A stretch of 64,000 nucleotides of DNA from Oscillospiraceae bacterium. GTDB lineage: Bacteria > Bacillota > Clostridia > Oscillospirales > UBA929. The stretch covers positions 62,001 through 126,000 of the forward strand of contig JAISCT010000047.1 in the NCBI GenBank assembly GCA_031265355.1, in the 5' to 3' direction. The position numbers were made by a program, and so were the translations under genes. The notes beneath the pieces are model-generated. The model did no database searches, had not been told where the DNA came from, and saw only the letters and a list, made by a program, of their open reading frames with translations. Of the stretch, positions 1 through 63,889 are shown piece by piece (the first letter of the stretch is position 1; each line of letters begins with the position of its first letter).

Positions 1-209
1 TTCGCAAGGCCCGTCTCCGTCTTGACCGTCACTTGGATGTCCGCGTTGCCGCTGGCCGCGTATATCTGATCCAAATACATCTCCCGGCAGGTGCGGCTCA
101 TACCCTCGGTGGCAAACAACAGCGCGGCGGACACGGCGATCGAGAACAAAACGAGGAAGAACCTCGCCTTGTTTTCCATCATGTTGCGAACCAGATACCT
201 AAAGATCAT
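1..209 (-). CDS. FtsX-like ABC transporter permease, N-terminal fragment (runs off the window)
   Basis: The reverse strand stays open from an ATG at 209 to the left edge, giving about 69 residues that begin MIFRYLVRNMMENKARFFLV. A short basic, amphipathic start, then one hydrophobic segment (residues about 17-34), then an extracellular-looking stretch is the usual N-terminus of FtsX/MacB/LolC-type permeases. Its start lies 28 nt after the thioesterase stop on the same strand, so it is probably the next gene of the biosynthetic operon, and would most simply help export the peptide or give self-resistance. In-frame alternative starts exist at 215 (GTG) and 227 (ATG), close to a purine-rich GGGGAGGGG. 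The ATPase partner is not in the window. The family call rests on the N-terminus only. Confidence 0.6.
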   Translation of the reverse strand, partial: MIFRYLVRNMMENKARFFLVLFSIAVSAALLFATEGMSRTCREMYLDQIYAASGNADIQVTVKTETGLA

Positions 210-236
210 CTTCACAGTTAGCATCCCCTCCCCATC

Positions 237-1025
237 TCAACCGGCCGCGGGCCGTCTCCGTCCCCATGTCAGCGGCGCGGGCGCGGCGGGGGCGCACGGC
301 GCCCCGTCCGCTGTCTCTCCCCCCGCGAGGGCACTGCGTATCAGTGCGACGATCTCCGGCACATGCTCATAAAAATAGAAATGATCCCCCTCAAACGCGT
401 GGTATCGGCATGCCCTGTCGGTGCACGCCCGCCACCGCAGCATGTCTTCCGCCCGCCCCAAAAACGCCCTGTCCCCCAGCCCGGAGAATACTGTGAGGCC
501 GCAGGGCAGCGGGCGGAGCGGCTCGCTCAGCGCCCTGGTCGCCATCATCCGGTAATCGGCCTTCAAGATAGGGACGATCAGATCCATGAGCTCCTTGTGC
601 CGCACGATCTCTCGCGGCGTCCCGCCCAGAGCGAGCACGCGTTCCATGAACGTCTCGTCCGGCAGCTCATGCAGCGGCGCTCGCCGTGCGGACGGGACCG
701 GCGGCACATTGGCCGACACAAAGACGTGCGCCGGCGGCGGCGCGCCCATCTCCTCCAGCCGAAAACAGACGTCATAGGCCAGCCAGCTCCCCATGCTGTG
801 CCCAAACAGCGCGTAACGGCCCCGGATACGCCGCCGGACGACGGCCCCGACGTCGTCCACGGCCTGCGCGAAGGTGTCGTACAAAGGCTCCGTGAAGCGT
901 CGGCCCCGGCCAGCCAGCTCGATGGGCTCAAAGGCGAGTCCCCGGTCCGTGTGCTTTCGAAAACACGCGTATGCGGACGTCATACCGCCCGCGTGGGGGA
1001 GGCAAAACACCTGCGCCGATCCCAT
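237..1025 (-). CDS. Type II thioesterase of the NRPS/PKS operon
   Basis: This is an alpha/beta hydrolase of about 262 residues, the usual size for external thioesterases that remove stalled or wrong acyl groups from carrier proteins. It shows an N-terminal FCLPHAGG (oxyanion region), the nucleophile elbow GHSMGSWLAYDV and a late GDHFYFYEH carrying the catalytic His, all typical of the GrsT/SrfAD family. ATG codons occur at 1031 and 1025. The second has AGGAG at a proper 6-nt distance and was chosen; the first would overlap its own ribosome site. It follows the flavoprotein gene with a 61-nt gap and precedes the permease. No integrated thioesterase is visible in the three NRPS proteins, so this protein is more likely an editing enzyme than the release enzyme, although release cannot be excluded. 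Confidence 0.9.
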   Translation of the reverse strand: MGSAQVFCLPHAGGMTSAYACFRKHTDRGLAFEPIELAGRGRRFTEPLYDTFAQAVDDVGAVVRRRIRGRYALFGHSMGSWLAYDVCFRLEEMGAPPPAHVFVSANVPPVPSARRAPLHELPDETFMERVLALGGTPREIVRHKELMDLIVPILKADYRMMATRALSEPLRPLPCGLTVFSGLGDRAFLGRAEDMLRWRACTDRACRYHAFEGDHFYFYEHVPEIVALIRSALAGGETADGAPCAPAAPAPLTWGRRRPAAG

Positions 1026-1086
1026 TTCCATCTCCTGACCCTCTCTCTGTGTTTTCTCTTGTCCGCCAAAACAATGGCCCGACCAA

Positions 1087-2190
1087 TCATCCGGGACGCG
1101 CTGCGGTGTTGCCATAGACAAACACCTCCGAAAAGAGCGGAAGGACCGACAGATTCCCCTGCACCAGCAGCTGTCCCTGGGTCATGGCTTTCAAAAAACT
1201 CTCTTCCGATTTGCCGAAGACCTGCATCCACTGCGTCAGCGTCGTTCGGACGCTGAGATCCGCCCGGCTCTCAAGGTCCTCCGTGATCTCCAGCTCTTTG
1301 CCGCGCACGTGGAACACGCACACGCCCGGCGCATCGCCGACGAAAGTAAATTTTACCGTGAAATCCCTGCCCTCGCCGGCACCCCTGAACATCAGCAACA
1401 TCAGGTTCTTAAAGTTTTGCACGCTACCGGGCGGCACCGCTTCGCGGTGTTTCAGCCACCGCGAAGCCAGCTCCAGCGAGCTGATGCGCGCCTTTGTGCC
1501 TATCTCCAAACTCAGATTGTGCGAGAGGATTGTCTTTTCCAGGTCCCCCAGATCCTGTGAGACCCGCCGCGCCGTTTCCACGTCCACGGCGCCCGTCTCC
1601 GCCATCTGCCGCCCGGCGTCCCGGCATGCCTGCAAGACAGACTCTCGCTTCTCCCGAAAGGCGCCCCAGAACAAAAACGCACTCGCATTGCCCCGGTAAA
1701 GTTCCGCTGTCAGCGCGTTTCCCAGCAGGTAGTGCAAATACGCCGACATCTGGGCAAACGCGTGGCTCACATGCCAGGATGCGGACGCAATCACCACCGT
1801 TTTGGGCAGGGGCCCTCGAAACGGCTGGCTGACGGTACCGCCAAAGACGTCCTGACGCGCCTGCAGCGCCGGAAACAGTCGTTCAATGAACCGTTTCAGG
1901 GTGGCGCTGACCATCCCAAAATACACCGGCGTGACCAACACTAGGATGTCGGTCTGCATGAACAGCGGGAAGATCCGCCGCGTCATCTCGTCCGGCAGCA
2001 CGCATCGCCCCACAGAGGGCGTCATACAGCAGGTACAGTCCCGGCAGTCGTCGATGCGAACCGCCGTCAAGTCGATGTCCGTGACCTCGGCGCCGGCGCT
2101 CTGCAATCCCTCGATGAACCGCCCCGCCATCTGCCGCGAGGTACTGAGCAGAAGCTCCCTGGGACTCGACTGCACAACCAACGCTCTCAA
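1087..2190 (-). CDS. Flavodoxin-fold NAD(P)H:FMN reductase fused to an SCP2-like domain
   Basis: The start is a TTG at 2190 that overlaps the TGA stop of the upstream membrane-protein gene (TTGA), indicating translational coupling. The product has about 367 residues. Residues 1-190 look like an iron-sulfur-flavoprotein/FMN-reductase type flavodoxin fold: VVQSSPREL at the phosphate-binding loop, a cysteine cluster CRDCTCC and a nearby GRC, then DILVLVTPVYFGMVSATLKR. The last 110 residues resemble an SCP2 lipid-binding domain, with ITEDLESRADLSVRTT followed by MTQGQLLVQGNLSVLPLF. Reduction of a hydrophobic, carrier-bound or released intermediate is a reasonable inference but is not shown by the sequence. 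The fusion is unusual for an NRPS operon. A longer reading frame upstream only shadows the neighbouring gene. Confidence 0.7.
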   Translation of the reverse strand: MRALVVQSSPRELLLSTSRQMAGRFIEGLQSAGAEVTDIDLTAVRIDDCRDCTCCMTPSVGRCVLPDEMTRRIFPLFMQTDILVLVTPVYFGMVSATLKRFIERLFPALQARQDVFGGTVSQPFRGPLPKTVVIASASWHVSHAFAQMSAYLHYLLGNALTAELYRGNASAFLFWGAFREKRESVLQACRDAGRQMAETGAVDVETARRVSQDLGDLEKTILSHNLSLEIGTKARISSLELASRWLKHREAVPPGSVQNFKNLMLLMFRGAGEGRDFTVKFTFVGDAPGVCVFHVRGKELEITEDLESRADLSVRTTLTQWMQVFGKSEESFLKAMTQGQLLVQGNLSVLPLFSEVFVYGNTAARPG

Positions 2191-2957
2191 CCCGCAGCCG
2201 CCTCCCTCTCCTCCGATGCCGACGCCTGCGCCGCGGCCCGGAAATACTTCCGGCAGCCGAAGCAGTAGAGCGGCCCTGTGACGCCGCCCAGCGTGCCGGC
2301 CACCAGCATCATCAGGCTGTATGACATGCCGGCGATGCTGACCGCTATCTGGCTGATGTAACTCAACACCAACACGATGCACTGCACGCTGGCGACAATG
2401 CCCAGAATGCACTGTTTGCGAGAAAATCGGTTGCTGCGCAGCGCGACGAGGTTTGTGGCCAGGTACCCCACGCCGAACAACCCCCACGTCCAGAGAAAAT
2501 AGGGGTCCAGTGGGAAGTAGTGCGGCGCCGTGATCTCTTCGAGCGTGAATCCCGCGGCGTACTGCTGCAGCATCACCCGGGTGACCTCGACGAAGTGCAC
2601 CCAGTTGGCCGCCCCCAACAAAAGGCCAAAGAGCATACAGATCTTGCTCCAGGTAAGTACGCCCGCGTGCCGTTCATTGCCCTTGCCGACATACACGTTC
2701 AGCGCGACGACCACCGCGATGTTCAGAATGTACAGGACCGCAAACAGCAACCGCCATATGATGTTGATGTACGGACGATGCAGCAGCGTCCCGAACCCCT
2801 CTCCGCCGGCGATGTACATGCCGACCGGGTCCACTGCGATCATCACGGTGACAGTCACATAGAGGAGAGCCACCACGGCCGTCAAGAGACCGCCAAGCCG
2901 CAGAATGCTTCTCTCACTTTGGGTGTACGTCTCTCCAAGAACCGCCTGGTATTTCAT
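2187..2957 (-). CDS. Multi-pass membrane protein of unknown function in the NRPS operon
   Basis: This is a protein of 256 residues with about six hydrophobic segments, for example LGGLLTAVVALLYVTVTVMI, IIWRLLFAVLYILNIAVVVA, ICMLFGLLLGAANWV, FLWTWGLFGVGYLATNLVAL, CILGIVASVQCIVLVLSYI and MLVAGTLGGVTGPLYCFG. The overall look resembles poorly characterised DUF4386-like membrane proteins, but I do not recognise a motif. ATG 2957 was chosen because AAGGAAG lies about 7 nt upstream; the frame is open further but there overlaps the end of the NRPS gene. The stop overlaps the TTG start of the flavoprotein gene. Roles in export, immunity or membrane-located tailoring are all possible. Confidence 0.75.
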   Translation of the reverse strand: MKYQAVLGETYTQSERSILRLGGLLTAVVALLYVTVTVMIAVDPVGMYIAGGEGFGTLLHRPYINIIWRLLFAVLYILNIAVVVALNVYVGKGNERHAGVLTWSKICMLFGLLLGAANWVHFVEVTRVMLQQYAAGFTLEEITAPHYFPLDPYFLWTWGLFGVGYLATNLVALRSNRFSRKQCILGIVASVQCIVLVLSYISQIAVSIAGMSYSLMMLVAGTLGGVTGPLYCFGCRKYFRAAAQASASEEREAAAG

Positions 2958-3013
2958 GCAACTTCTTCCTTTCCCGTCCGGTCTTTCTTTTTTCCGTCCC
3001 ATCCCGCCGCGCG

Positions 3014-6000
3014 TCAGCGCCGTCGGCGCACCGGCGACAGCGCGGCCCGCTCCTCCGACAGGAGCGAACCGACGGTCCGCTGCGGGCACTGCGTGATTTG
3101 CCCGAGCACGGCGACAAAGCGGGCCGCGATTCTGGCCGCCGTGGCGTCCAGAAACAGTGACGTGCTGTACTCAAGCCGCAGCCACAGAGACGTCGGCGTC
3201 TCCACAAAGTTAAACACCAGATCGCACTTGCTCTGGGTGGAGGGCGTAGTAATAATTTCCATTTCTCCCCCGTCGAAAGGGATCGTCCGTTCCCGCTGTG
3301 AGGAGACCAACTGCACCAGCACCGCAACCAGCGGGGTCTCCTCTGCGCGCGGCGGGACCATTGCGCGCAGAATGCTGGAATACGGGCACGTCTGATGGGC
3401 AAACGCCTGCAGCAGGACCTCCCGCACCCCCGCCACCAGAGCGGTAAAATCGTCTTCGGCCCGGAAATGCAGCCTGAGCGGCAGGATGTTGAGGTAGTAG
3501 CCCACCTGGTCAAACAGCTGGACATGATCCCGGCCGCTGACCACCGTACCGAGGACGATGTCCCTCTGCCCCGTGTACTTGTGCATCAGCGCGTACACCG
3601 CCGTCAACAGACCCATAAACAGGGTGCCCCCGTGGGCCTGCGCGAGCGCCCTGAGAGACCGGACCAGCGCGTCGTCCAGAGATACGTCGATACTTCGCCC
3701 CGCGTGCTCCGCCCCGCGCCGGTCCGGAAAATCGGCGTTGAGCGTCAGCACCGGGACGGGCGGCGTCAGCACGCGCGCCCAGTGGCGCTTCAGTTCCTCC
3801 CCGTAGGACCCCTGCAGCCGGTTTCGCAACCACACGGCGTAGTCCGCGTACTGGATCGACAGCGGCGGCAGGTCCGGCGTGCGGCGCGCGCGGCGTGCGC
3901 AGTAGAAGGCCTGCAAATCCCGGCACAGGATCTCCAGGGAGTGTGCGTCGGCGATGATGTGATGCATCACCAGCACAAACAGATGCCGATTCTCGCCGAG
4001 ATACGCCGCCGCGGCCCGGACGGGCCGTTCCGCCTCAAGATCAAACGGTCCGGCCACTTGCGGCAGCAATCTCTCCAGGGCCTCTTCCGCTGCCGCGCCG
4101 TCGAAGTTCAAAACGTCAAAGTCGCCGAAACTGTCGTTGTAGGGCCGCACCCGCTGGGCGGGGACGCCGTCCGCCACGGCGAACTCCGTCCGCAGCGCGT
4201 GGTGCCGCCGGATGAGATCCCGCAGGGCGCCGCGCAACGTCTCCATCTCCATCCGATGGCACAGCAGCGGCAGGACAATGTTCAACGTACCGCCGTCCCG
4301 ATGCAGTTTGACCGTCGTCCAGATGTCCTCCTGCATCGGGGACAACACATAGTACGCGGCCTCGGGCGCGGCCGGGATGTCCTCCGCCGTCCCGCAGGGC
4401 GCCTCCTCGCGGCGGAGTCGGTCCACATACGCCGCAAGCTGCGAGACCACCGGCCGGCGAAACAGTTCGGCCAGCGGGAAATGGATGGAGAAGGCCTTCT
4501 CCACGACCGCGGCCAGGCGGGCGGCGTTTAAGCTGTGGCCGCCCAGATCGAAGAAATCGTCCTCTCGACCCACATCCTCGACCCGCAAGATTTCCGCCAT
4601 CGCCGCGGCGATCCGCTCCTCGGTCTCCGTCTGCGGCGCCGTGGCCGTTCGCCCGGCCGCGGCCGCCAGATCGTCCAATTTTCCCCTGTCCAATTTGCAG
4701 TTGTCCGTGAGCGGCAGCGCGTCCAAAAAGACGATCCGCGCCGGCACCATGTACGGCGGCAGAAAAGCCCCTATCCGCTCTTTGACTGTCTCGGCGTCTC
4801 GCGCGCCGCCGGCGACAAACGCGCAGAGGTATGGGTCGCCCGCCGCGCTCCGTTTGACGACGACCGCCGCATCCTCCGCCCCCGCATGGATCCTGAGCGC
4901 GTGCTCAATCTCCTTGGTCTCAATGCGAAACCCCCTGATTTTGACTTGTCCGTCCGCCCGGCCCAGGTACTCGATCTCCCCGCTCTCCAACCACCGGCCC
5001 AGGTCGCCGGAGTGGTACAGCCGCTTGCCCGCCAGCGCCGTACAGGGAACGAAGCGCTCCGCGGTGAGTGTTTCGTTGCCCACATAGCCACGCGCCAGTC
5101 CCGCCCCGGCCACGCGGATCTCCCCCGTCATGCCAACGTCGCACAGCCGGTCTCCGCACATCACATAGGCATCCAATGTGGGCAGCGGCCGGCCAATGTT
5201 GCTGACCGGACGCAGCGTGTCGGCCGGCGTCAGCTCTTTGTACGTCGTGTGTACGGTCGTCTCCGTGATGCCGTACATGTTGACGACCTTGACCCGCGGG
5301 TGGCGTTCCATAAAGCCGCGCAGTTTGTCCGGCGCCAGCGCCTCTCCGCCGAAGATCAGATACCGCAGGCTGTCGAGGGGCGGCCCTGCCGCCGCCAACA
5401 GGCTGTAGAAGGCGGAGGGCACTTGGTTGAACACCGTGACACCCCGGGCGCGAACGATCTCCGCCACCGTCTGCCCGTCCCGCGCCTCTTCTTTAGAGAT
5501 GACGACCAGCGTCCCGCCAAAGAGCAGCGCGCCAAAGATCTCCCAGACCGAAAAATCGAAGCAGGCCGAGTGGAACATCATCCAGACGTCTCTCTCGGTA
5601 AAATCAAACGGGAAACCTGCGTTGAAGAACAGCCTTACGACCTGCGCGTGCTCCACCATGACGCCTTTGGGCTGCCCGGACGTACCGGAGGTAAAGATGA
5701 CATAGGCCGGATCTTCGGGCCGGGCACCGCCGTCCACGTCCCCAGCTTCACCGGCAAATGTCCCCTCGTCGCGCAGGTCGATCACCGGCGCCACCGTGTC
5801 GAAGGGCGCCGCGGGCCCGTCGGTCAGCACGGCCCGCGCGCCGGCCGTTTCGCACATGTAGGCCAGTCGTCCGGCCGGGTAGTCCGGATCCATCGGAACG
5901 TAGTGGGCCCCCGCCTTCAGCACCGCCAGAAGACCAACAATCAACCGAATCGATTTGGGGCAGCAGAGGCATACCGCGTCCCCCGGTCCGATCCCCATCT

Positions 6001-7537
6001 CGACCAGCTTGCGCGCCAGCCGATTGGCCCGTTTCTCAAGCTGCCCGTAAGAGATCTCTTTGTCCCCGCACACCACGGCCGCGCGGTCGGGGCGGCGGCG
6101 GCACGCGCGCGCAAACAACGTGTGCACACAGACGTCCCGCGGGTAGTCGACGGCGCTGTTTTGCGACCATGAGAGGATCCGGGCCTCCGCCTGCGGGTCG
6201 AGCACCGAGACGGCCCCGACACGCATGTCCGGGGTTCCCGTCACCTGTTCCAGTACCCGGACCAGTTCCGCACCGAGGCGCGTCATCTCCGCCTCGGTGA
6301 ACACCTCGGCGTTGTACTGAAACAGGACCCGCGCCTCTTCAAGGGGCATGACCACCACCGTGAGGCCGTAATTGGTCTGCTCCCGTCCGGTGAGCCGGCC
6401 GACGGCAAAGCCCCGCTCGGCCACGGCGGCCGGATCGTTTTGCACCCTGTCGATCGGATAATTTTCAAAGACCAAGATGGTGTTCACAGCGTCGCGCGCC
6501 AGGCATCCGGCGTTTTGAAGTTCAGTCAGCGAGGTGTATTCAAACGTCTGCCCAATGAGACAGCCGTCGTGCACCGCGCGCAACAACGCAAAAAACGTCA
6601 TGTCCGATCCCTGCGTCTTCACCCGGCAGGGGATGGTGTTGATCAGCAGACCCACGGTCTGGTGGAAATCCTCCCCGCCGCTCCGGCCGGAGGTCACCAC
6701 ACCGAACAGCACGTCGTCGGCCCGGCTGTGACACTGCAGCAGCACACCCCAGACAGCCTGCACCAACATGTTGAGCGTCGTTTCCGCCCGCTGGGCCAAC
6801 ACCTTGGCCCGTTCGGTGAGCGCCCGCCCAAGAGGCACCGCCTTCTCCGCCGCCCGGCAGCGGTATCCGGCGGCGTCCGGCGGCTTGCCAAACAGCGTCA
6901 CATCCGTGTCGTAGCCCTCAAGGTAGGCCCGCCAATGTGCGAGACCCGCTCCACTCCTCGGCAGCAGCCATTTGACAAACCCGTCGAACGCGTTGCGCGT
7001 CCGCTCGTCCAGCGGCCTGTGCTGTCGGATATCCGTGTATATCCGGATGAAATCACCCAGGAGGATGCCGACGCTCCAGCCGTCCAAGATGATGTGGTGC
7101 ATGGTCCATACCAGCTCGAACCGATCCGTCCCCATCTGAAACACGTCCAATTTCAGCAGCGCCTCCCGACCGAGGTCGAAGCCCTTGTCCCGGACCGCCT
7201 CCATGTGCGCTTCCAGTCGACGCTCCTGCGCCGCCTCGGGCAGCGTCGTCAGGTCGAAAAACCCGGCCTTCAGCGCGCGCGTCCGCAGCACCACCTGCAC
7301 GGGCGTCTCCTGCGCATCGGCCGCAAAGAAGGTGCGCAGCACCTCATATTTCCGCCCCAAATGGGCCAGCGTCCCCTCCAACGCCGCCCAATCCAGCGTG
7401 CCCGTCACGGCGATCCGCTTTTGAACAATATACATTCCCTGCCCATACAGCTTGTCACAGGCAAGGATCCCCCGCTGCAGCGGGGTCAGCGGGTAAATCT
7501 TTTCGACGTTGGTCCGCGCTGCGGCGCCGTTGTTCAT
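3014..7537 (-). CDS. NRPS, C-A(Thr)-PCP-C
   Basis: A four-domain synthetase of about 1507 residues. The first condensation domain (about 10-430) begins YPLTPLQRGIL and carries MHHIILDGWS, features of DCL domains that accept a D-residue. This agrees with the epimerase domain ending the preceding protein. The adenylation domain (about 450-960) has VIFTSGTSGQPKGVM. Reading the GrsA positions gives D-F-W-N-I-G-M-V-H, which matches the established threonine code. The usual NGK motif before the final Lys is NCK here. PCP carries LGGHSL. A second condensation domain (about 1060-1490) has HHIIADA, with Ala replacing the usual Gly, and ends the protein with no A, PCP or TE after it. The ATG at 7537 follows GGGAGG. 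The terminal C domain may release or cyclise the peptide, or wait for a partner outside the window. Confidence 0.93.
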   Translation of the reverse strand: MNNGAAARTNVEKIYPLTPLQRGILACDKLYGQGMYIVQKRIAVTGTLDWAALEGTLAHLGRKYEVLRTFFAADAQETPVQVVLRTRALKAGFFDLTTLPEAAQERRLEAHMEAVRDKGFDLGREALLKLDVFQMGTDRFELVWTMHHIILDGWSVGILLGDFIRIYTDIRQHRPLDERTRNAFDGFVKWLLPRSGAGLAHWRAYLEGYDTDVTLFGKPPDAAGYRCRAAEKAVPLGRALTERAKVLAQRAETTLNMLVQAVWGVLLQCHSRADDVLFGVVTSGRSGGEDFHQTVGLLINTIPCRVKTQGSDMTFFALLRAVHDGCLIGQTFEYTSLTELQNAGCLARDAVNTILVFENYPIDRVQNDPAAVAERGFAVGRLTGREQTNYGLTVVVMPLEEARVLFQYNAEVFTEAEMTRLGAELVRVLEQVTGTPDMRVGAVSVLDPQAEARILSWSQNSAVDYPRDVCVHTLFARACRRRPDRAAVVCGDKEISYGQLEKRANRLARKLVEMGIGPGDAVCLCCPKSIRLIVGLLAVLKAGAHYVPMDPDYPAGRLAYMCETAGARAVLTDGPAAPFDTVAPVIDLRDEGTFAGEAGDVDGGARPEDPAYVIFTSGTSGQPKGVMVEHAQVVRLFFNAGFPFDFTERDVWMMFHSACFDFSVWEIFGALLFGGTLVVISKEEARDGQTVAEIVRARGVTVFNQVPSAFYSLLAAAGPPLDSLRYLIFGGEALAPDKLRGFMERHPRVKVVNMYGITETTVHTTYKELTPADTLRPVSNIGRPLPTLDAYVMCGDRLCDVGMTGEIRVAGAGLARGYVGNETLTAERFVPCTALAGKRLYHSGDLGRWLESGEIEYLGRADGQVKIRGFRIETKEIEHALRIHAGAEDAAVVVKRSAAGDPYLCAFVAGGARDAETVKERIGAFLPPYMVPARIVFLDALPLTDNCKLDRGKLDDLAAAAGRTATAPQTETEERIAAAMAEILRVEDVGREDDFFDLGGHSLNAARLAAVVEKAFSIHFPLAELFRRPVVSQLAAYVDRLRREEAPCGTAEDIPAAPEAAYYVLSPMQEDIWTTVKLHRDGGTLNIVLPLLCHRMEMETLRGALRDLIRRHHALRTEFAVADGVPAQRVRPYNDSFGDFDVLNFDGAAAEEALERLLPQVAGPFDLEAERPVRAAAAYLGENRHLFVLVMHHIIADAHSLEILCRDLQAFYCARRARRTPDLPPLSIQYADYAVWLRNRLQGSYGEELKRHWARVLTPPVPVLTLNADFPDRRGAEHAGRSIDVSLDDALVRSLRALAQAHGGTLFMGLLTAVYALMHKYTGQRDIVLGTVVSGRDHVQLFDQVGYYLNILPLRLHFRAEDDFTALVAGVREVLLQAFAHQTCPYSSILRAMVPPRAEETPLVAVLVQLVSSQRERTIPFDGGEMEIITTPSTQSKCDLVFNFVETPTSLWLRLEYSTSLFLDATAARIAARFVAVLGQITQCPQRTVGSLLSEERAALSPVRRRR

Positions 7538-7576
7538 GTGCCTCCCTACCCTTCCGCCATCCCGGCGTTTAGTACC

Positions 7577-7638
7577 TTGTTGCCGCGAAGCGGCAACAAA
7601 AACAAGAATTTGGGTTGTGGGTTGCAGGTGCAACCCAC
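7577..7638 (-). repeat. Two perfect hairpins between NRPS genes
   Basis: Two independent perfect inverted repeats fill the gap between the NRPS stop at 7640 and the next NRPS start at 7537. One has 10-bp arms at 7617-7626 and 7629-7638 with a 2-nt spacer and begins directly after the stop codon. The other has 10-bp arms at 7577-7586 and 7590-7599 with a 3-nt loop. In the mRNA neither is followed by a clean U-run, so they look more like processing or stability elements than terminators, although partial attenuation is possible. Confidence 0.8.
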
Positions 7639-7639
7639 G

Positions 7640-13957: not shown

Positions 13958-13992
13958 CGCTCTTCTCCCCACATCTCTTCTCTGTTTCGCCT

Positions 13993-15846: not shown

Positions 15847-15860
15847 GACCACCACCACCT

Positions 15861-18800
15861 TCACACAAAATCTTCCGAAAAGGCCCGCAGCTGCGCCTCA
15901 TCCTCATCTTTGAGGGGGAACAGCGCCGCGAGCGGCGCACGCGCGTCGCGACATGCGAGCCGCGTCACCTCGGTAAAGCGCTCGATGAAACGTTCGATCG
16001 TCTCCCGTCGGAAGAGATCCGTCGCGTAATCCAACACAAAACGGATCTGCGCGCCCATATCGTAGGCCTCCAGTTTGATGTCGAACTTGGCGGCCTGATA
16101 GCGGATCGGCACATGGGAAAACGAGACGCCCTCGATGTCGACGGGGAACTGGGCGGCGTTTTGCATGATGAACATGGTGTCAAACAGCGGGTTCCGGTCG
16201 GCGGCCACAGCCGTCCGCAGGTCCTCGACGAGCTTGTCGTATGGGTAGTCCTGGTTTTCGAAGGCGTCGACGGCCGTCTCCTTCACCTCCTCTAGGAAAG
16301 CGAGGAACGACTTGTCCGCGCGCGGCGCGCTACGGATGCACAGTGTGTTTAAAAAAAGACCGACGATGTTTTCGACGCCGGCCAAAGTCCGGCCTGCGAC
16401 CGGCGTACCGACGACAATGTCCTCCTGGCCCGTGTAGCGCCACAGGAGCGCCTTGTACAGGGAGAGTAACACCACGAAAAGCGTGGTCCTTGTCCGGCCG
16501 GCCAACTGCCGGACCGCCTCCGACAGCGGAGTGTCGAAGGAAAAAAACAGCGTGTCCCCCGCGAAGCTCTTGACCGAAGGTCTGCAAAAGTCGGCCGGTA
16601 TGTCCAACGCGGGGATCTGGCCGCTCAACTGCCGCCGCCAATACGCCCGCTGCCGCCGGATCTTCTCCGTCTCCAGGGACCCATTTTGCCAGGCCGCGCA
16701 GTCGCGGTAGCGAAACGGCAGCGGCGGCAGGGGAAGCCCTCCGTAGATAAGGCAAAATTCCCGCAAAAAGATATCCAGCGAGACGCCGTCGAAGACGGCG
16801 TGGTGAAAGTCTCCGAGCAGGAGATGCGACCCGTCGCTCTCCCGCAGCAGTTTCAATCTGAACAGCGGCGCCGCGCTCAGATCAAACGGCCGGATAAACG
16901 CCGCCAGCTCTTCTTCTATCGACCTCTCGCGCCGGCCGCCGTCGAGGACAAACGTCACCTGCTCGTGCACACACTGTACGATCCGATTGCCCTTCACCGC
17001 GAAACTCGTGCGCAGAGATTCCTGCCTGCCGATCAGGACGCGGACGGCGCGTTCGAAGGCGTCCGGCTCCACAGGCCCCTCGATGCGGACCGCGAACGGG
17101 ATGTTGTACGCGAGGCTTTTGTCGTTTCTGAGGTGCAGCAGCACCATGCGCAGCTGCGACGGCGACACCTCGTAGTCGTCCCCGTCGGGCAGCCGGGTCG
17201 GCGTCTCGGACGCGGCCGGCGCACCGGCCTCCACCAGCGCCGCCATGTCACGGATGTGCGCCGCGCCGAAGAGCGCGCGCAGGGAGACGTCGACGCAAAG
17301 ATGCTGTCTCATCAAGGACGAGAGCCGGGACAACTGTATCGAATCGCCCCCCAAGTCGAAGAAATTTTCCGTCACGCCGATCTCTTCCCGGCCCAGGACC
17401 TCTCGCCACAGGCCGAGGAGAATCCGCTCGGTTTCGGTATCCGCCGGCGCCAACGTGCGCGCCTGCCGCAGGTCGGGCGGCGGCAGTTTTGTCTTGTCCG
17501 TCTTCCCGTTCCGGGTGACCGGAATGGCGTCCAGCAGGACATAGTGGGCGGGGAGCATATAGGGAGGCAGCCGTTCGGCTAGGATCTCCCTCAGCGTCTC
17601 GATCGAGAACCCGTCCGCCGTCTCGAGGTAGGCGCACAGGTACTGTCCCCGTCCCTCGTCGTCCCGGAGCGTCACAACCGCTTTTTTCACCCCCGGCGCG
17701 TACAAAATCATCCGCTCGATTTCACCCAGCTCGATGCGAAATCCCCGCAGTTTCACCTGCGCGTCCCTCCGGCCACAGAAGAGGATCTGTCCGTCCGCCC
17801 GCCACCGGCCCACGTCGCCCGTCCGGTAACAGCGGCCGGAGGGTTCGTGAGGGCAGGCGATGAATTTATCCAGTTCCAGTTCCGGTCTGTTCAGATAGCC
17901 CCGGGCCAACCGCGGTCCGCCGATCAAAATCTCGCCTTTGACGCCCACCGGCTGCACATTGCCCGCCCGGTTCATGATATACACGGAGGTGTGGGAGACA
18001 GGTCTGCCGATGGGGATGTCCCCGCATGGGCACGCATCGATGGGAAAGACCGTGGAAAACACCGTCGCCTCGGTGGGTCCGTAGATGTTGTGGAGTTTCC
18101 CCGGCCCCATCGCGGCCAGCGCGCGCCGCATATGGATCTCCGAGGCGCGCTCTCCGCCGGCAAACAGTTTGCGCAGACGGGGCAGGCATGAAACGTCGCA
18201 GTCCACGATGGCGTTGAACAGCGCAGTCGTGACAAACATGACCGTGACCCCTTGGTCTCGGATGGTTCCGGCAATCGCCCGCACATCCATCGCGTTCTCC
18301 CTGTCCAACAGCACAAGGCCGGCCCCGTTCAGCAGCGCGCCGAAGATGTCAAACACCGAGCCGTCAAAGGCGATGTTCGAGAGTTGCAGCAGTTTGTCGT
18401 CCGCCTCGTACGTCAGGTAATCGTTGTCGATCACCGTCGCCAGCAACTGCCTGTGCTCCACCAAGATACCCTTCGGCGCGCCCGTCGTCCCCGATGTGTA
18501 GACGACATAGGCCAAGTCCTCCGATCGGCCGACCGGCAGCGGACCGGCGCACGCGGCGTACGCCAGCGCCCGGGCCAGCGACAGGATCCGGACGCCGAGG
18601 CAGAGCGCTTCGCAAGCATCCGGATCGTCCGTCAGCAAAATCCGCGCGCCGCAATCCTCAAGGATCCTCCTGAGCCGCGCGGGCGGGCTGGCGCCGTCGA
18701 GCGGAACATACGCGGCGCCACTCCGTAAGATCCCAAGTACGGCCGCTATCTGAGACACGCCCCGCGCCGCCATCAGTGCCACCCGGCCCTCCGGGGCAGC

Positions 18801-20426: not shown

Positions 20427-20462
20427 GTCCATCTCCCTCTCACGCGCGGCCGCGGGCCCGCC

Positions 20463-23400
20463 TCAGCCCGCCGCGTCCGTCTGGATCTCCAATTCATCCA
20501 ACAGACCCTGCAGCTCGTCCTCGCTGATGTCCGCGAGCAATTCCTCCATCGTGTCCAGCCCCAGCGTCGTCCGCAGCGCCCCGGAGAGTTCGCTCACCAG
20601 ATCCGCGATGGATTGATTGTTCAAAATGTTCACAATCGGGACATTGACGCCGAGATTCAGCTCGACGCGGTTGCGCAGCTCCATCGACAGCATCGAATCC
20701 ATGCCGAGTTCGCTGAGGGAATTTTGCAGCCGGATGCCCTGCGGCGGCAAATGCAGTACCCGGCCGACCAACGCCAGCAGTTTTTCCTCCAAGTAGGCCT
20801 GTCGCGCCGTCTCCTCCTGCCGGAGATACGCCTCCTGGAAGCGCTTCAAAATCTCCTCGTCGGAGAGAGCGACAACGTCTGACCCGGCGTCCGCGTCGAG
20901 ATGGTCCAGGTACGGTGTCTGGCTCCTGGGCCCCGACTCGATGATCCGTTTCCAATCGGCCTCCAGGACTACGGCGTAGGCGATGTCCTGCCGGAGAAGC
21001 CTCTGAAGCGCCATATCGCCGCTCTCGCCCGTCAAGGGCGTCATCCCTTTCTTCACATAGAGCTCTTCGAGGTGCAAGTCCTTGATCATCCCCTCCGCCC
21101 AGGGCCCCCACAGGATGCTCAGCGCCGCGAGGCCCCGGTCGCGCCGGTATTGCGCCAGCGCGTCCAAAAACGCGTTCGCGGCCGCGTAGTTCGCCTGCCC
21201 GGCCGACGTGATCATCGACGCGACGGACGAATACAGCACAAAGAAGTCCAGCTCCTGCTGCTGGAAACGCTCGTGCAGCCGCCAATTGCCGATGGCCTTG
21301 CTGTCGAAGACCTCGTGGAACAGATCGTTTGTCATATTGCCGATGAGCGCGTCCCTCACGACGCCGGCTGTGCTGATGACCCCCCGGATGCGGTCCGCCG
21401 TATCCCCCAGGGCGTCGAAGAATCGGTCCAGCGCCGCTTTGTCCCGCATATCGGCCGCGCCGATGTGCACCTGTGCGCCCGCCTCCTCAAGGGCGCGCAC
21501 GAAGTCCACCCGCGCCTTGACCGACGGACTCAGGTCGTTCCGCTCCCACTGCGCGCGGTCCGGAAGCGGCGTCCGTCCCAGCAGCGCCAGCTGTCTGGCG
21601 CCCCGCGCCACGAGCCAGCGGGTCGCGAGCTGCCCCAGCGCGCCGAACGCCCCTGTTACCAGATAACAGTGCTCTGAACTGAGCGTCACCGGCAGCGGCT
21701 TTGGCAGCGTCTGTATGTTGTTCAGCCGGGCGACGTATCGTCTCCCCCGCCGGTACGCGATCTGGTCCTCCCCGTCGCTGCCCATGATTTCCTCATAAAA
21801 CAGCCGGGCATCCCCCGTCAAGTCCGTCGGGTCGACGTCTACAATACCGCCCCAATTGCCGGTGTATTCTTGGTTGCCAATCAACCGCGCCATGCCCCAC
21901 ACGGGATTTTGCAGCATCTGGCCGGTCTCATCCGGCCCGATCGTCTGGGCTCCGCCGGTCACGATCCACAGTTTGTTCTTTTCTCCTTTGTCGGCGATGA
22001 AAGCCCGGATGGTGTGCAGAAGGGAGTATAGCCCCACGTCCGCCGCCGCGCGCAGGATATCGGCGTTTACCCGCTCGTTTGCCTCCGCGTCGAGGTTCCA
22101 GCAGTGGACAATCCCCTGCACCGGCGCCCCGCAGGCCTCGTACACCCGAGAAAAATCCGCCTCCACATCTCCTCTGACCGTGGCGCGTCCACCGGGGATG
22201 TCCAGCGAACAGGCAGGCCCGCGCTCCACAAGCAGGCATCGGCCCCCGGCGTTCCGAATGTGCCGGGCCAACGCCGCGGCAAATCCCCGCCCATCGGCCA
22301 GCAATACCCACAGCCCCGGCGCCGCACCGCCTTCCGCGCGTGCTTTCTCCACCCAGTCGAGCCGATACAGCCGGCGGTCCAGCGCGGACGGCGACAGTTC
22401 ACCGGCCGTCAGCCCCAGCGGCCTCACCGCGAAACCGCCGACAAAGGCGATGAGCCGACCGTCCTCTCCGTACAACGAGATGTCGCTAAGGGAACCGTTT
22501 TCGTCCTCCGAGGTCAGCCGGCAGTGGATCCACATCGTGCCCGCCGGCGGCCGGCAGACCCTGTATTCGCCCACGCCGACCGGCAGCCGGAGCTCCTCGC
22601 CCTCTCTGGTGAAACCCAGGGCGACGACGGTCTGGAAACAGGCATCCAAGATGCCCGGGTGCAGTTTGTAGGCCTCAGCCTCCGTCAGCATACCGTCTGG
22701 CAGCACCAGCCTGGCGGCTACGTGCGCGGGAGACACCCAGATCTGCTCCAAGCAGGCAAACCGGTTTTGATAGTCAAATCCCATCTCGCCAAACTTCCGA
22801 TACGCCGCCTCTTTTGTGTACAGAACATATCCGCCGCCGGTCAGCGCACCGGCCATCCCGGCCACGTCGGCGCGCCGGCCGCGCCCCAGATTTTGGCCCT
22901 GCCGGAACGAACCTCGGGCCGCCAGATGGGCGTGCCCCTCCGAGACGGCGTAGATGGAAAACGCAGGCCGGTCCCCGCCGATGTGCAGTTGGAGCTTGGT
23001 GGTCACCTGCGGATTTACAAACGTCGCTTTGACAAATTCGATCTCCCGCAGACTGAAAAAACCGTCCCCATAGCAGGCCTTCGCCGCCTGCATGGCCATT
23101 TCCAGATAACCGGCGGCGGGGAAAACCACATTGCCCTGAATCTGATGATCCTCCAAAAAAGGCACCAATTCCCGCTTGAGCTCGGTCTCCCAAATCGGCT
23201 CCACCGTTTCGGCTCTCAGGCCCAGCAGGCTGTCCTCATACAGGCCCAGGCGGCGCCGGCGGCCCGCCTCGGACTCCCGCCAGTAGGATGCCTGACACCA
23301 AGCGTAGCCGGGCAGTTTGACGTAGTTGCCCGGCGCCGGGTACAGGGGCGTCCAGTCCGTCAGGTATCCGTTTGCGTACAGCGCCGCCACGGCGCCGTAA

Positions 23401-25934
23401 TAGGTGTCCCGCTCGTCCTGCCGTCTGTGCAGGGAACTCACCACCGCGACATCCGCGTTTCTGTCCCCGGCAATCTCCTTTATGTAGCGGCTGAGCGCGG
23501 GGTGCGGGCCTATCTCCAAAAACCCTGTGTAGCCCTCGTCCAGCAGGGCGCTCACCGCATCGGCGAAGAGCACCGGACGCCGGATGTTGTCCCACCAATA
23601 GTCGTCGGACACCGCCCCGGTGACGGCGCGCCCGGTGACGGTGGAATAGAGCGCGGTGGCGGGACTGTGGTATGCTATCCCGGCCACACCGGCCAAAAAG
23701 CGCTCTCGGATCCGCTCCATAAAGCGGCTGTGGAACGGCACGTTCACATCCAAAAATTTGTTAAACACCGACTGCGCCTGCAGCGCGGCGGCGACGGCCT
23801 CCAATGCCGCTAAGTCTCCCACCAGCGTGACGCCGCTGTGGCTGTTTACGGCCACGATGTCCACCCCGGGGCGGTCCGCAATGAGCGCGGCCGTGCTCCG
23901 GTGGTCCAGCCCGACCGCCAGCATCTTTCCAAGCCCCGTCAGTTCGTGCTGCAGGGCGCTCCGGTAGTAGACGAGCTTTATGGCGTCTTCAAAGCTCATG
24001 ACGCCGGCCTCATAAAATGCGGCGATTTCGCCCGCACTGTGTCCCACAATGGCGGCGGGCCGGAACCCTTTGGACCGCCACAGCGCCGTCAGAGCGACCT
24101 GAAGCGCAAAGTTCGCCGGCTGCGCGACTCTGGTCTCCCCCATGGCGGACGACGACTCCTCCGCCGTGAGCGCCTCGTAAAGCGACCACCCCGCATAGCG
24201 GCCAAATACCTCGTCGCAGCGCAGAACGGTCTGCCGGAAAACTTCCTCCGTCTCCAGCAGCGTGCGGCCCATCTTCCACCACTGGGGACCCATCCCGGTG
24301 TAGACAAACACCAGCCCGGCGTCCTTCTTTCGCCGCACCCCCAAGGCCACGGCGGGACTCTTTTCGCCCGCCAAAAAACCGGTCAGCTTGCGGCCGAGGT
24401 CCGCGGCGTTGTCCGCCGCTACCGCCAGCCGGAAGTCGTGGTGGTCGCGGCGAAAGGCCATGCTGTACCCAAGATCGTAGGGGTCGAGAGGGCCGGACGA
24501 CGACAGGAACCGGTCGTATTTTTCCGTCAGCCCCCTCAGGGCGTCCTCCGCGCGCGCCGAGAGACAGTAGAGCAGCGGTGACGCGGCGTCCGGGGTTTCG
24601 ATCGGGACGCTCTCGGGGGCCTGCGTCATCACGACGCTTGCGTTCGTGCCGCCGAATCCGAAGCCGTTGACGCCCGCGAGCGCCCGCGGCCCATACGCGG
24701 GCCAGTCCGTCAAGGCGTCGGGGATCCGCATGTGATACCGCGCCGGGTTGATCGCGGGGTTCAACGCGTGCAAATTCAGGTGGGGCGGTATCTGCCTGTG
24801 CTTTAAGCACAGGGACGTTTTGATGAGCGCGGCCACGCCCGCGGCCCCCTCCAAATGCCCGATGTTTGTCTTGAGGGACCCGGCATAAAATGGGTGATTT
24901 GGATCTCTGCCCTCCGACAGCACGCCGCCGACCGCCTGGGCCTCAAGCGGATCGCCCACGCTCGTGCCGGTGCCGTGCATCTCGAAATATTGGATCTGCG
25001 CCGGGTCCACCCGCGCCTGGGCGCAAGCCGCTCGAATCACTTTTGTCTGTGAGACCGGACTCGGCACCGTGATGGAGCTCGTGTGCCCGTCCTGGTTGAC
25101 CGCACTCCCCAAAATCACCGCGTAGATGCTGTCGCGGTCGGCCACCGCGTCCGCCAACCGCTTCAGGACCACCACGCCCACCCCTTCGCCGCGGACATAG
25201 CCGTTCGCGCCCGCATCGAAAGTCTTGCAGCGGCCGTCCGCCGACAAAAAACCGCCCTGGGACTCCGCAATGGTATACTGCGGAGCGAGATTCAGCAGCA
25301 CGCCGCCGGCCAGCGCCATACTACATTCGCCGCTTCGGATGCTCTGACAGGCCAGGTGCGTGGTCACCAACGAGGAGGAGCAGGCGGTATCCACCGTCAT
25401 GCTGGGTCCGGTGAAATCGTACACGTAGGAGATGCGATTGGAAATCAGCGTCATCATGGATCCGGTGGCCGTGTGCAGGTCGATCATGTCAAAGCTCGAC
25501 CCGCCGAATTGGAGAATCTTATAGTCCAGCGTGAAGGCGCCCATGAACACGCCCACATCTCTCCCGGCCTGCCGTTCCACCACCAGGCCCGCGTCCTCCA
25601 TGGCCTCCCAGCTGACCTCCAGCAGAAGCCGCTGCTGCGGGTCTATAAAGGGCGCCTCTCGCGGGGTGATGCCGAAAAACTGCGGGTCAAATTGGTCGAC
25701 GCCATCGATGAAGCCCCCGTATTGACTCACGGTCTTCCCCTTAAAACTCCGGTTTTCGTGGTAATATGTCTTCCGATCCCAACGATCCGCCGGGATCTCG
25801 ACAATGGCGTCGGTTCCGTTCGCGAGCATGTCCCAAAACATGTTCGTGCTGCTTACACCGCCGGGAAAGCGGCAGCCGATCCCCACGAGCGCAATCGCCT
25901 GGTCTCCGTAAGCGCTCAGCACCTCTCCACCCAT
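20463..25934 (-). CDS. Type I polyketide synthase module, KS-AT-DH-KR-ACP
   Basis: A single-module PKS of 1823 residues, first gene of the operon. KS (about 12-440) has the active Cys185 in DTACSSS, His320 in HGTGT and His360 in KTNIGH. AT (about 540-830) has GHSAGE (Ser633) and VPFH (His735), which is closer to malonyl- than methylmalonyl-type signatures. DH (about 905-1175) has the HxxxGxxxxP motif from His930 and Asp1097 in GILDACFQ. KR (about 1425-1615) has TGAFGALG and Ser1570, Tyr1583 and Asn1587. ACP has GMDSML (Ser1747). There is no enoyl reductase, so one extension should give an alpha,beta-unsaturated acyl chain. No loading domain is present; the starter must come from elsewhere, for example a fatty acyl donor. 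AGGAGG lies 8 nt before ATG 25934. The acidic C-terminal tail may dock to the next NRPS. Confidence 0.95.
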   Translation of the reverse strand: MGGEVLSAYGDQAIALVGIGCRFPGGVSSTNMFWDMLANGTDAIVEIPADRWDRKTYYHENRSFKGKTVSQYGGFIDGVDQFDPQFFGITPREAPFIDPQQRLLLEVSWEAMEDAGLVVERQAGRDVGVFMGAFTLDYKILQFGGSSFDMIDLHTATGSMMTLISNRISYVYDFTGPSMTVDTACSSSLVTTHLACQSIRSGECSMALAGGVLLNLAPQYTIAESQGGFLSADGRCKTFDAGANGYVRGEGVGVVVLKRLADAVADRDSIYAVILGSAVNQDGHTSSITVPSPVSQTKVIRAACAQARVDPAQIQYFEMHGTGTSVGDPLEAQAVGGVLSEGRDPNHPFYAGSLKTNIGHLEGAAGVAALIKTSLCLKHRQIPPHLNLHALNPAINPARYHMRIPDALTDWPAYGPRALAGVNGFGFGGTNASVVMTQAPESVPIETPDAASPLLYCLSARAEDALRGLTEKYDRFLSSSGPLDPYDLGYSMAFRRDHHDFRLAVAADNAADLGRKLTGFLAGEKSPAVALGVRRKKDAGLVFVYTGMGPQWWKMGRTLLETEEVFRQTVLRCDEVFGRYAGWSLYEALTAEESSSAMGETRVAQPANFALQVALTALWRSKGFRPAAIVGHSAGEIAAFYEAGVMSFEDAIKLVYYRSALQHELTGLGKMLAVGLDHRSTAALIADRPGVDIVAVNSHSGVTLVGDLAALEAVAAALQAQSVFNKFLDVNVPFHSRFMERIRERFLAGVAGIAYHSPATALYSTVTGRAVTGAVSDDYWWDNIRRPVLFADAVSALLDEGYTGFLEIGPHPALSRYIKEIAGDRNADVAVVSSLHRRQDERDTYYGAVAALYANGYLTDWTPLYPAPGNYVKLPGYAWCQASYWRESEAGRRRRLGLYEDSLLGLRAETVEPIWETELKRELVPFLEDHQIQGNVVFPAAGYLEMAMQAAKACYGDGFFSLREIEFVKATFVNPQVTTKLQLHIGGDRPAFSIYAVSEGHAHLAARGSFRQGQNLGRGRRADVAGMAGALTGGGYVLYTKEAAYRKFGEMGFDYQNRFACLEQIWVSPAHVAARLVLPDGMLTEAEAYKLHPGILDACFQTVVALGFTREGEELRLPVGVGEYRVCRPPAGTMWIHCRLTSEDENGSLSDISLYGEDGRLIAFVGGFAVRPLGLTAGELSPSALDRRLYRLDWVEKARAEGGAAPGLWVLLADGRGFAAALARHIRNAGGRCLLVERGPACSLDIPGGRATVRGDVEADFSRVYEACGAPVQGIVHCWNLDAEANERVNADILRAAADVGLYSLLHTIRAFIADKGEKNKLWIVTGGAQTIGPDETGQMLQNPVWGMARLIGNQEYTGNWGGIVDVDPTDLTGDARLFYEEIMGSDGEDQIAYRRGRRYVARLNNIQTLPKPLPVTLSSEHCYLVTGAFGALGQLATRWLVARGARQLALLGRTPLPDRAQWERNDLSPSVKARVDFVRALEEAGAQVHIGAADMRDKAALDRFFDALGDTADRIRGVISTAGVVRDALIGNMTNDLFHEVFDSKAIGNWRLHERFQQQELDFFVLYSSVASMITSAGQANYAAANAFLDALAQYRRDRGLAALSILWGPWAEGMIKDLHLEELYVKKGMTPLTGESGDMALQRLLRQDIAYAVVLEADWKRIIESGPRSQTPYLDHLDADAGSDVVALSDEEILKRFQEAYLRQEETARQAYLEEKLLALVGRVLHLPPQGIRLQNSLSELGMDSMLSMELRNRVELNLGVNVPIVNILNNQSIADLVSELSGALRTTLGLDTMEELLADISEDELQGLLDELEIQTDAAG

Positions 25935-26002
25935 TTTACACCCCTCCTGCGTCCGTCAAACACACGTCCGTCGATTCGAACGTCTCATCAATGCTGTCTG
26001 TG

Positions 26003-26218
26003 TCAAACGTCCCGCCTGATCAAGTAAATCATACTAAAGCGATGTGGATTTTGTGTCATATACCTTCCATTTTTCGCATCCCATCCGGTTCGGCATAGCC
26101 GAACAGCAAAGTTTGAATCCTCATACCCAAGCTGTCGGGCGGCACAAAAAATAACAAGACAAACACACACCCGTGAACAGATGCGTGAGTGCCCTGTTTT
26201 GCTCAACACCAAACACAC
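26003..26218 (-). CDS. Possible 71-residue leader ORF, AraC-HTH-like remnant
   Basis: Inside the predicted 5' leader of the PKS/NRPS operon, a GTG at 26218 has a strong AGGAGG about 5 nt upstream and opens 71 codons ending 69 nt before the PKS start. The middle, AARQLGYEDSNFAVRLCR, resembles the second helix-turn-helix of AraC-family regulators (GYxDxxxFxRxF), and a following GRYM sits where AraC proteins have YR. It is too short to be a working AraC protein, so it may be a decayed regulator, a small DNA-binding protein or a translated leader. The region is less GC-rich than the rest of the operon. The call rests on the ribosome site and a visual motif match only. Confidence 0.35.
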   Translation of the reverse strand: MCLVLSKTGHSRICSRVCVCLVIFCAARQLGYEDSNFAVRLCRTGWDAKNGRYMTQNPHRFSMIYLIRRDV

Positions 26219-26282
26219 TATACCCTCCTGTCTGCCTCCAAAAGGGCCTTTTCAAAACCCACAAACAGTGTTGCACCGCTCC

Positions 26283-26317
26283 CTCTGCCACAGCATCGTC
26301 CGCCGACTATGGCAGAG
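26283..26317 (-). promoter_or_regulatory. Inverted repeat at the 5' end of the PKS/NRPS transcript
   Basis: Perfect 8-bp arms at 26283-26290 and 26310-26317 (CTCTGCCA/TGGCAGAG) with a 19-nt loop. If transcription starts near 26320 from the promoter at 26327-26355, this covers about +3 to +38, so it could be a 5' stabilising hairpin or an operator. Confidence 0.6.
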
Positions 26318-26326
26318 GCGAACGCC

Positions 26327-26355
26327 ATTATATTCCAATAATTTTTGCCTGTCAA
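26327..26355 (-). promoter_or_regulatory. Consensus sigma-A promoter of the PKS/NRPS operon
   Basis: On the minus strand TTGACA (26350-26355), a 17-bp spacer and TATAAT (26327-26332) match both consensus hexamers perfectly. It lies about 390 bp before the PKS start, with no other gene between except the possible leader ORF. The predicted leader RNA is about 385 nt. Confidence 0.85.
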
Positions 26356-26672: not shown

Positions 26673-27464
26673 TCAGGCGCCGGCTTTGAGCTGGAGAGAC
26701 AGGCGGTCGGCGATCATGGCGATGAATTCGGAATTGGTCGGCTTCCCCTTGACATTGGACACCGTATAACCAAAGAACCCCTGCAGTGTCTCGATATCGC
26801 CTCGGTCCCAGGCCACCTCGATGGCGTGGCGGATGGCCCGCTCCACGCGGGAGGGCGTGGTGGCAAAGGTCTTGGCCACGGCAGGGTAGAGCACCTTGGT
26901 GATGGCGTTGATCGCCTCTCTGTCCTTGACGGCCACCATGATGGCCTCACGCAGGTACTGGTAACCCTTGATGTGGGCGGGCACGCCGATCTCGTGGATG
27001 ATGTCGGTCACGCGTGTCTCGATGTCCAGATCCGAGCGCAGCCCGCGCGCGGGCGCGGCGGCTCGTAAAGGCTGCGTGCGTCTGGCCCTGCCCACCGCGC
27101 GGACACGCTCCACCAGCCCCGCGATGTCAAAAGGTTTGAGGATAAAATACTGGGCGCCCAGCGCCGCCGCCTCCGCCGTGGTCTGGTCGGTGGCAAAGCC
27201 AGACAGAACAATGACGCCGGGCCGGCTCCCCGTCGCCATGCTCCCGATGGCCTTCATCACGCCAAACCCGTCGAGTACGGGCAGGACAATGTCCAGCAAA
27301 ACGACGTCGGGCAAAAGCGTCATGATCTGCTGTACCGCCTGGTACCCGTCGGTGGACACACCGACAATCTCAAAGTCTTTCTCGCCTTCCAGTGCACTCG
27401 TCAGCAGGGAACGGAAATCCGCGTTGTCGTCCGCTATCAAAATTTTCACCGTGTTGTCCATCAT
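26673..27464 (-). CDS. spo0A: Sporulation master response regulator Spo0A
   Basis: A 263-residue protein with an N-terminal receiver domain ([14 protein letters not shown] with the acidic pair, phospho-acceptor Asp in VVLLDIVLP, conserved Lys region FILKPFD) and the C-terminal Spo0A DNA-binding domain ([20 protein letters not shown], then [20 protein letters not shown]). Spo0A, when phosphorylated, commits the cell to sporulation and controls many stationary-phase genes. ATG 27464 follows GAGGGGG at about 7 nt; a second ATG is the next codon. As in many Firmicutes it lies downstream of spoIVB on the same strand. Upstream are a sigma-H-like promoter and two AT-rich dyads. The biosynthetic operon begins just beyond its terminator. 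Confidence 0.98.
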
Positions 27465-60570: not shown

Positions 60571-60844
60571 GTCCCAAGTCACTCCTTACATACATATCTA
60601 TTGTGTTTTGGTACTTCGCTTGTGGGCGGCGTCGGCCCCCGCGGGCGGGACTGCTTGCACAGACAAACCCACCGGCGGCCGCTTCGTCTGCACAACAAAA
60701 CGGTCGCTTTTTCCTAAGGTAAAACACCAAACGGATACTTTTATATCCTCAATACCCACAAATACGCTTATTTTACACACAGATCACAAGTCTCGGGTAA
60801 ACCCCTCCGCCCTCGTATAACAGAAAGATAACTTCCAATGCACG

Positions 60845-63690: not shown

Positions 63691-63889
63691 GACTTTTTCC
63701 TCCTCATTGTCTATATATTCCGATCGTAACGGCAAAGGAACCCCTCCGCCACCATATTTTCGTCATGTCCGTGTAAAATTTGTGCGCGCCAAAAGCGCCG
63801 CAAGCGTCCGCGGAGCATCACGAATTTTTATTTGATTGCTATTTTGATCGGATTGTAGTATGCTGATACTTGTCAGGGAGTGGATACCG

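Follow-up and report, generated by a model that had tools for sequence, protein, structure and literature searches.

A hybrid polyketide synthase-nonribosomal peptide synthetase cluster with an internal AsnB gene in an Oscillospiraceae bacterium, and its predicted acyl-pentapeptide product

We analyzed a 64,000-nucleotide stretch of the genome of an Oscillospiraceae bacterium (C47:62001-126000, where C47 is contig JAISCT010000047.1 of a 3.08 Mb assembly in 81 contigs), henceforth called the window. Its minus strand carries a hybrid polyketide synthase (PKS)-nonribosomal peptide synthetase (NRPS) cluster of ~33 kb (C47:54.6-88.4 kb), which extends 7.4 kb past the left edge of the window and contains a gene for an AsnB-type glutamine amidotransferase. 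We consider it rather probable that the cluster makes, on a collinear line, a 2-enoyl-Ile(Val)-X-D-Thr-Thr-Thr-al or -ol in which X may be an amide. Such assembly lines are well known; the combination with AsnB was not found in the collections searched.

Organization of the cluster

The cluster opens with a PKS of 1823 aa (20463-25934; coordinates are those of the window and genes lie on the minus strand unless stated otherwise), in which a domain search detected KS (24771-25898), AT (23412-24311), DH (22413-23228), KR (21093-21665) and ACP (20592-20786). Downstream lie NRPS1 (C1-A1-PCP1-C2, 15861-20432), the AsnB gene, NRPS2 (A2-PCP2-C3-A3-PCP3-E, 7640-13996) and NRPS3 (C4-A4-PCP4-C5, 3014-7537 from the likely ATG, in an open frame of 3014-7633). 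Left of base 1 of the window the minus strand carries on with a gene for an FtsX permease, another for an ABC ATPase and, on the same strand, NRPS4 (C6-A5-PCP5-TR, C47:54568-58920). A PKS module (KS-AT-ACP) and C-A-PCP modules thus share one transcription unit, as in hybrid type I PKS-NRPS systems. The core Pfam domains score far over the Pfam cut-offs, and key residues are present, namely HHxxxD in the C domains, the carrier serines and, as judged by eye, the KS, DH and KR motifs.

We aligned several hundred A domains and derived the specificity codes afresh. The code of A1 is DGFFFGIVF (Ile/Val-like), and its nearest neighbors are DGFFLGVVY domains; A2 (12392-13936) reads DPRHLALLA, while A3 (9356-10777), A4 and A5 all read DFWNIGMVH, a Thr code. 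Condensation domains were typed with profiles built from 189 LCL, 53 DCL and 82 E domains. C4, which follows the E domain of NRPS2 (7727-9076) on the next protein, scored 354.9 bits with the DCL profile versus 213.7 with LCL; the other C domains were typed LCL. Across the genome, seven condensation-domain matches were obtained, all of them on C47 and one of them left of the window. NRPS4, to which this last match belongs, ends in a C-terminal thioester reductase (PF07993, 206 bits; TIGR01746, 280 bits, cut-off 213) with the motifs GATGFLG and YAQTK, and is hence a reductase-terminated NRPS. In total, the line has five amino-acid modules.

A preliminary description, made from the window alone, had reported the minus-strand order PKS, NRPS1, AsnB, NRPS2, NRPS3 and accessory genes, and domain searches bore it out. 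The codes that had been read by hand (DGFFFGIVF, DPRHLALLA and DFWNIGMVH twice) matched ours exactly, the succession of an E domain and a DCL-type C domain agreed with the profile scores, and modules selecting Ile/Val, X and Thr, together with a D-Thr, were likewise supported. The list of modules was right for the genes inside the window and incomplete at its end, as the terminal module and the release domain lie outside. The acylated tetrapeptide predicted there is incorrect, as the edge of the window truncates the cluster: a fifth, Thr-selecting module and a terminal thioester reductase, those of NRPS4, are found ~3 kb past the edge, on the same strand, and the tetrapeptide reading was rejected for this reason. 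Given this fifth module and its terminal reductase, an acyl-pentapeptide with reductive release is predicted instead.

A dispersed repeat of ~76 bp with short inverted repeats occupies the gap between NRPS2 and NRPS3 (window 7560-7650, C47:69560-69650). The genome contains at least 41 matches to it (93-100% identity), the congener G003 has related copies, and the repeat resembles a small mobile or REP-like (repetitive extragenic palindromic) element.

The AsnB gene and residue X

The amidotransferase gene (13993-15846 from the ATG that gives Cys2, MCGICG) lies in an open frame of 13993-15864 that overlaps each of its neighbors by four bases: a GTG start at 15864 lies inside the NRPS1 stop (GTGA), and the end of the gene lies in a GTGA common to NRPS2. 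Its product scores 451 bits with TIGR01536 (cut-off 267) and has the N-terminal Cys2 glutaminase and the synthetase domain of that family. Among 391 genomes of the class, the best match is 53% identical (G577), followed by 47%, 47% and 46%; a 398-genome sample of the phylum yielded no further AsnB at E<=1e-170 beyond G405. In G577, the gene directly downstream of AsnB encodes an A-PCP protein with the identical code DPRHLALLA, and the rest of the cluster differs: there the A-PCP forms a protein by itself, and around it lie further free-standing A domains and a different NRPS. The relatives at 46-47% are found near A domains with other codes. AsnB is thus paired with an A domain of code DPRHLALLA in two cases, and the two clusters are otherwise different, which is suggestive but no proof. 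Because the closest AsnB also directly precedes an A-PCP of identical code in an otherwise different cluster, the enzyme described here is likely either to amidate residue X or to make its precursor. In the open-access literature we recognized no paper on an AsnB that amidates a nonribosomal peptide.

The preliminary description had left the code DPRHLALLA unassigned; however, it had already been printed as a 2-aminoadipate type. In the zeamine cluster paper, the first A domain of Zmn16 reads DPRHLALLAK with 2-aminoadipate as its prediction, and a 2025 survey lists DPRHLALLAK for alpha-aminoadipate, beside DPRHVSLLAK for Asn. By analogy, X would belong to the acidic class (aminoadipate, glutamate or aspartate). 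This is not certain, since the fabclavine peptide contains 2,3-diaminobutyrate, and the fabclavine cluster is reported to be homologous to that of zeamine, with nearly identical codes.

As a test of Lys2-like ancestry, TIGR03443 was run on the A domains. The Thr domains A3 and A4 scored higher (195 and 193 bits) than A2 (171 bits). Only in A2 does a single stretch pass by itself, which lends at most weak support to such an ancestry. Arg 239 with Pro or Ala 236 marks A domains that activate a side-chain carboxylate: those for iso-Glu and iso-MeAsp in microcystin, and those for aminoadipate in ACV synthetase and Lys2. In the case of ACV synthetase, adenylation of the side chain has been reported (PMC7147772). 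Among the alignments listed for solved structures, no A domain with a DPRH code was seen. A more speculative and unlikely reading is that A2 activates the side-chain carboxylate of an acidic X and AsnB amidates the alpha-carboxylate; the enoyl-pentapeptide aldehyde would then contain an isoglutamine-like residue, and AsnB plus the DPRH split module would act as a portable device for amidation. Parallels for A2 are offered by the iso-Glu module of microcystin and, with aminoadipate, by ACV synthetase, both of which activate the side-chain carboxylate. We know of no described nonribosomal line in which alpha-amidation by AsnB stands beside a side-chain-activating A domain.

The splitting of the X module, with A2-PCP2 opening its protein and the upstream protein ending in a C domain, is a recurrent arrangement. 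In a comparison of multimodular DPRH-type lines with a readable upstream neighbor, it was found in the host (G000), in lines C61 and C84 of G487, and in loci L028 and L065. G487, a genome of the same class, has two DPRH-type NRPS genes on these large multimodular lines. Locus L028, from Oceanirhabdus sp. W0125-5, encodes a protein whose domains run as in NRPS2, A(DPRHLALLV)-PCP-C-A(Thr)-PCP-E, and its pair of codes differs from that of NRPS2 by one residue. Identity in the best segment is, however, 37%, the other modules differ and no AsnB lies within the 10-kb flanks.

The zeamine and fabclavine lines (Zmn16-17, FclI-J) also combine DPRHLALLA in a protein-opening A domain with a DFWNIGMVH Thr module. 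In contrast with the cluster described here, their DPRH module initiates the line, the order is X-Phe-Asn-Asn-Thr-Val, the NRPSs are joined to polyamine enzymes of the polyunsaturated fatty acid (PUFA) type, and no AsnB is listed. Membership in that family was rejected on module order and codes, and the cluster has no PUFA synthase genes.

More generally, the nearest relatives in a collection of 84,980 genomes are only 27-48% identical in their best segment. None of the 295 genomes searched in the order yielded a PKS comparable along its full length, and 17 other genomes searched in the family gave no match to NRPS2 beyond single A domains. Neither the PKS nor A2 nor AsnB revealed a second copy of the cluster when used as queries against samples of the order, the class and the phylum.

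Predicted product and alternative readings

The biosynthesis that we propose would proceed as follows. The lone PKS module would take an acyl starter delivered in trans and lengthen it by one malonate unit, and the action of KR and DH would leave a 2-enoyl chain. NRPS1 would join this chain to Ile (or Val), and C2 at the end of NRPS1 would hand it to X held by the A2-PCP2 half-module at the start of NRPS2. Either before loading or on the line, AsnB would convert one carboxylate of an acidic X to an amide. NRPS2 would add Thr and epimerize it to D-Thr, NRPS3 (through its DCL domain) would add L-Thr, and NRPS4 would add the third Thr, after which the reductase would free a threoninal-type aldehyde, or an alcohol if a second reduction took place. 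The product would be exported by the FtsX/ATPase pair, and perhaps also by the neighboring ABC-2 pair, and the free-standing thioesterase would clear misloaded carriers. Activation of the carriers could be carried out by an ACPS/Sfp-family transferase found in a 233-aa frame. The sequence itself shows the domains and their order, the codes, the types of the C domains, the layout of the operon and its borders, from which the starter, X, its amidation, the product and the role of the product are inferred.

NRPSs of gut clostridia that make dipeptide aldehydes also end in a reductase domain. Such enzymes are described as having dipeptide aldehydes as predicted products (Guo et al. 2017 as cited in PMC10794557; PMC12282076), and the peptide aldehydes of gut clostridial NRPSs are reported to inhibit cathepsins. 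The likeness lies in the predicted aldehyde products and probably in the bacterial group; the difference is that the gut enzymes described make dipeptides, whereas the line presented here has five amino-acid modules and, in addition, a PKS module, an E domain and AsnB.

Several observations weigh against the proposed product. The PKS shows no loading domain for a starter. The tandem of C5 (end of NRPS3) and C6 (start of NRPS4) between PCP4 and A5 is unexplained, and C6 is off the core motifs: it keeps HHSLCDA but deviates from the others, which C5 retains. A tentative interpretation of this departure is that C5 may perform the last condensation and that C6 may therefore be vestigial. As to X, its acidic nature rests on one printed prediction and one survey entry, and the 2,3-diaminobutyrate of fabclavine might be the load of the first A domain of that line. 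AsnB itself passes the ordinary asparagine-synthase model of NCBI, and DPRH domains are also found without AsnB within the flanks seen.

Two other readings, both of which we consider improbable, draw on the tandem of C domains. One is that the line stops at NRPS3 and an acyl tetrapeptide is freed by the free thioesterase, with NRPS4 and its reductase forming a separate line. Accessory and transporter genes do lie between NRPS3 and NRPS4, and C5 followed by C6 makes an abnormal junction; however, the terminal C domain of NRPS3 requires an acceptor downstream and, NRPS1 to NRPS3 aside, the genome has no C-bearing NRPS gene but NRPS4, NRPS4 alone would lack an amino-acid donor, the genes share a strand with tight spacing, and the thioesterase is free-standing. 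The other is that C5, the surplus C domain between PCP4 and A5, is a dehydrating domain that turns the Thr of the fourth module into dehydrobutyrine (Dhb), in which case the product would be enoyl-Ile-X-D-Thr-Dhb-Thr-al. In albopeptide, C domains in excess do mark dehydrating ones, including one that acts on Thr (PMC10880069). Yet dehydrating C domains are fed by carriers of the GGDSI type (GGDSx), while PCP4 has GGHSL, which belongs to carriers feeding ordinary LCL domains (PMC10880069), and C5 scores as LCL, though with profiles that had no dehydrating reference set.

Other doubts concern X and AsnB. The acceptance of AsnB by the general model, the several DPRH modules that have no AsnB in the stretch seen and the 46-47% relatives that lie near A domains of other codes would all fit an enzyme that tailors nothing on the line, but supplies asparagine or nitrogen to metabolism or amidates another target (the acyl starter or a cell-wall residue), its place beside A2 being due to chance. 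Such a role has some likelihood, albeit a low one: none of the A domains of the line has an Asn code, the gene overlaps both NRPS neighbors by four bases, and G577, which has the closest AsnB, shows the same order of AsnB and A(DPRHLALLA). A slightly lower probability still is given to X being a diamino acid such as 2,3-diaminobutyrate. The zeamine line begins with DPRHLALLA, and the kinship of zeamine and fabclavine noted above speaks for this option; however, no diamino-acid gene was recognized in the cluster, and AsnB would be left without a substrate. An enoyl-pentapeptide aldehyde or alcohol with an acidic, perhaps amidated X is the product that we favor.

Borders, neighboring genes and significance

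A sigma-A-type promoter (TTGACA-17-TATAAT, 12 of 12 matches) lies at 26327-26355, its first base being 26355. It is separated from the PKS gene by a leader of ~400 nt (25934-26327) with two terminator-like hairpins, and attenuation in the leader is possible; a search of window 1-30000, leader included, gave no Rfam family. One TGNCGAA was found in 738 bases versus 0.34 expected (either orientation), which gives no evidence for control of the promoter by Spo0A. The spo0A gene itself (26673-27464) is the upstream border and is not part of the cluster. Together with spoIVB, also upstream of the PKS, it marks the host as a spore-former of the clostridial/bacillar line, probably a clostridial one.

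Downstream of NRPS3 lie a frame with weak DUF4386 similarity (2187-3089; 21.5 bits, below the cut-off of 27.6) that may encode a membrane protein, a gene of uncertain start for a flavodoxin-fold, NADPH-dependent flavin mononucleotide (FMN) reductase-like protein (1087-2190) and the free-standing (type II) thioesterase (237-1031; PF00975, 122 bits). The FtsX/LolCE-type permease has its first 224 bases in the window (1-224, part of C47:59720-62224), and its ABC ATPase partner is found at C47:58963-59658 on the same strand. Further left of NRPS4 are the ABC-2 exporter pair, a transporter gene with an FMN riboswitch, which is therefore probably a riboflavin transporter, and a gene for a 1790-aa protein with two polysaccharide-deacetylase domains (C47:46145-51517).

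The cluster is placed between spo0A and the FMN-riboswitch transporter gene. In the congener G002, this transporter gene comes directly after spo0A, in other words, the site is empty; the alignment with G002 also skips the stretch from the transporter gene to C47:45959, including the 1790-aa gene. The congener G004 keeps spo0A and the promoter region and lacks the synthetases; in their place it has, at G004:C124:2560-2860, a 62-bp piece that matches the FtsX gene (88.7%) and about the last 20 bases of NRPS4, followed by the ABC-2 pair. The simplest reading suggests that the common ancestor of the host and G004 had the cluster and that G004 lost it, a view that needs confirmation because the assembly of G004 is fragmentary (68% complete) and the relic contig is only 4.7 kb long. 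The flanking genes are highly similar to those of the congeners (spo0A 95-97%, transporter 81-84% identical), which speaks against contamination.

Other genes were seen elsewhere. A second PKS gene of the host (G000:C3:1-15000), cut by the contig end, encodes an AMP-ligase, a KS and a partial AT, and adjoins an acyl-CoA dehydrogenase gene and others that may make an unusual extender unit. In the window, a 1584-aa glycoside hydrolase family 3 protein is encoded at 55828-60582, beside an 867-aa open reading frame (61132-63735) with no Pfam match.

If the proposed product is correct, a poorly studied group of spore-formers would make an acylated, Thr-rich peptide aldehyde. Such aldehydes often inhibit proteases, and by analogy a role as a protease inhibitor may be envisaged. 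The locus also seems to show ongoing loss of the cluster, as the promoter region and gene scraps remain in a close relative. Finally, the pairing of AsnB with A2 would provide a testable rule for the poorly understood DPRH code: look for an adjoining AsnB.

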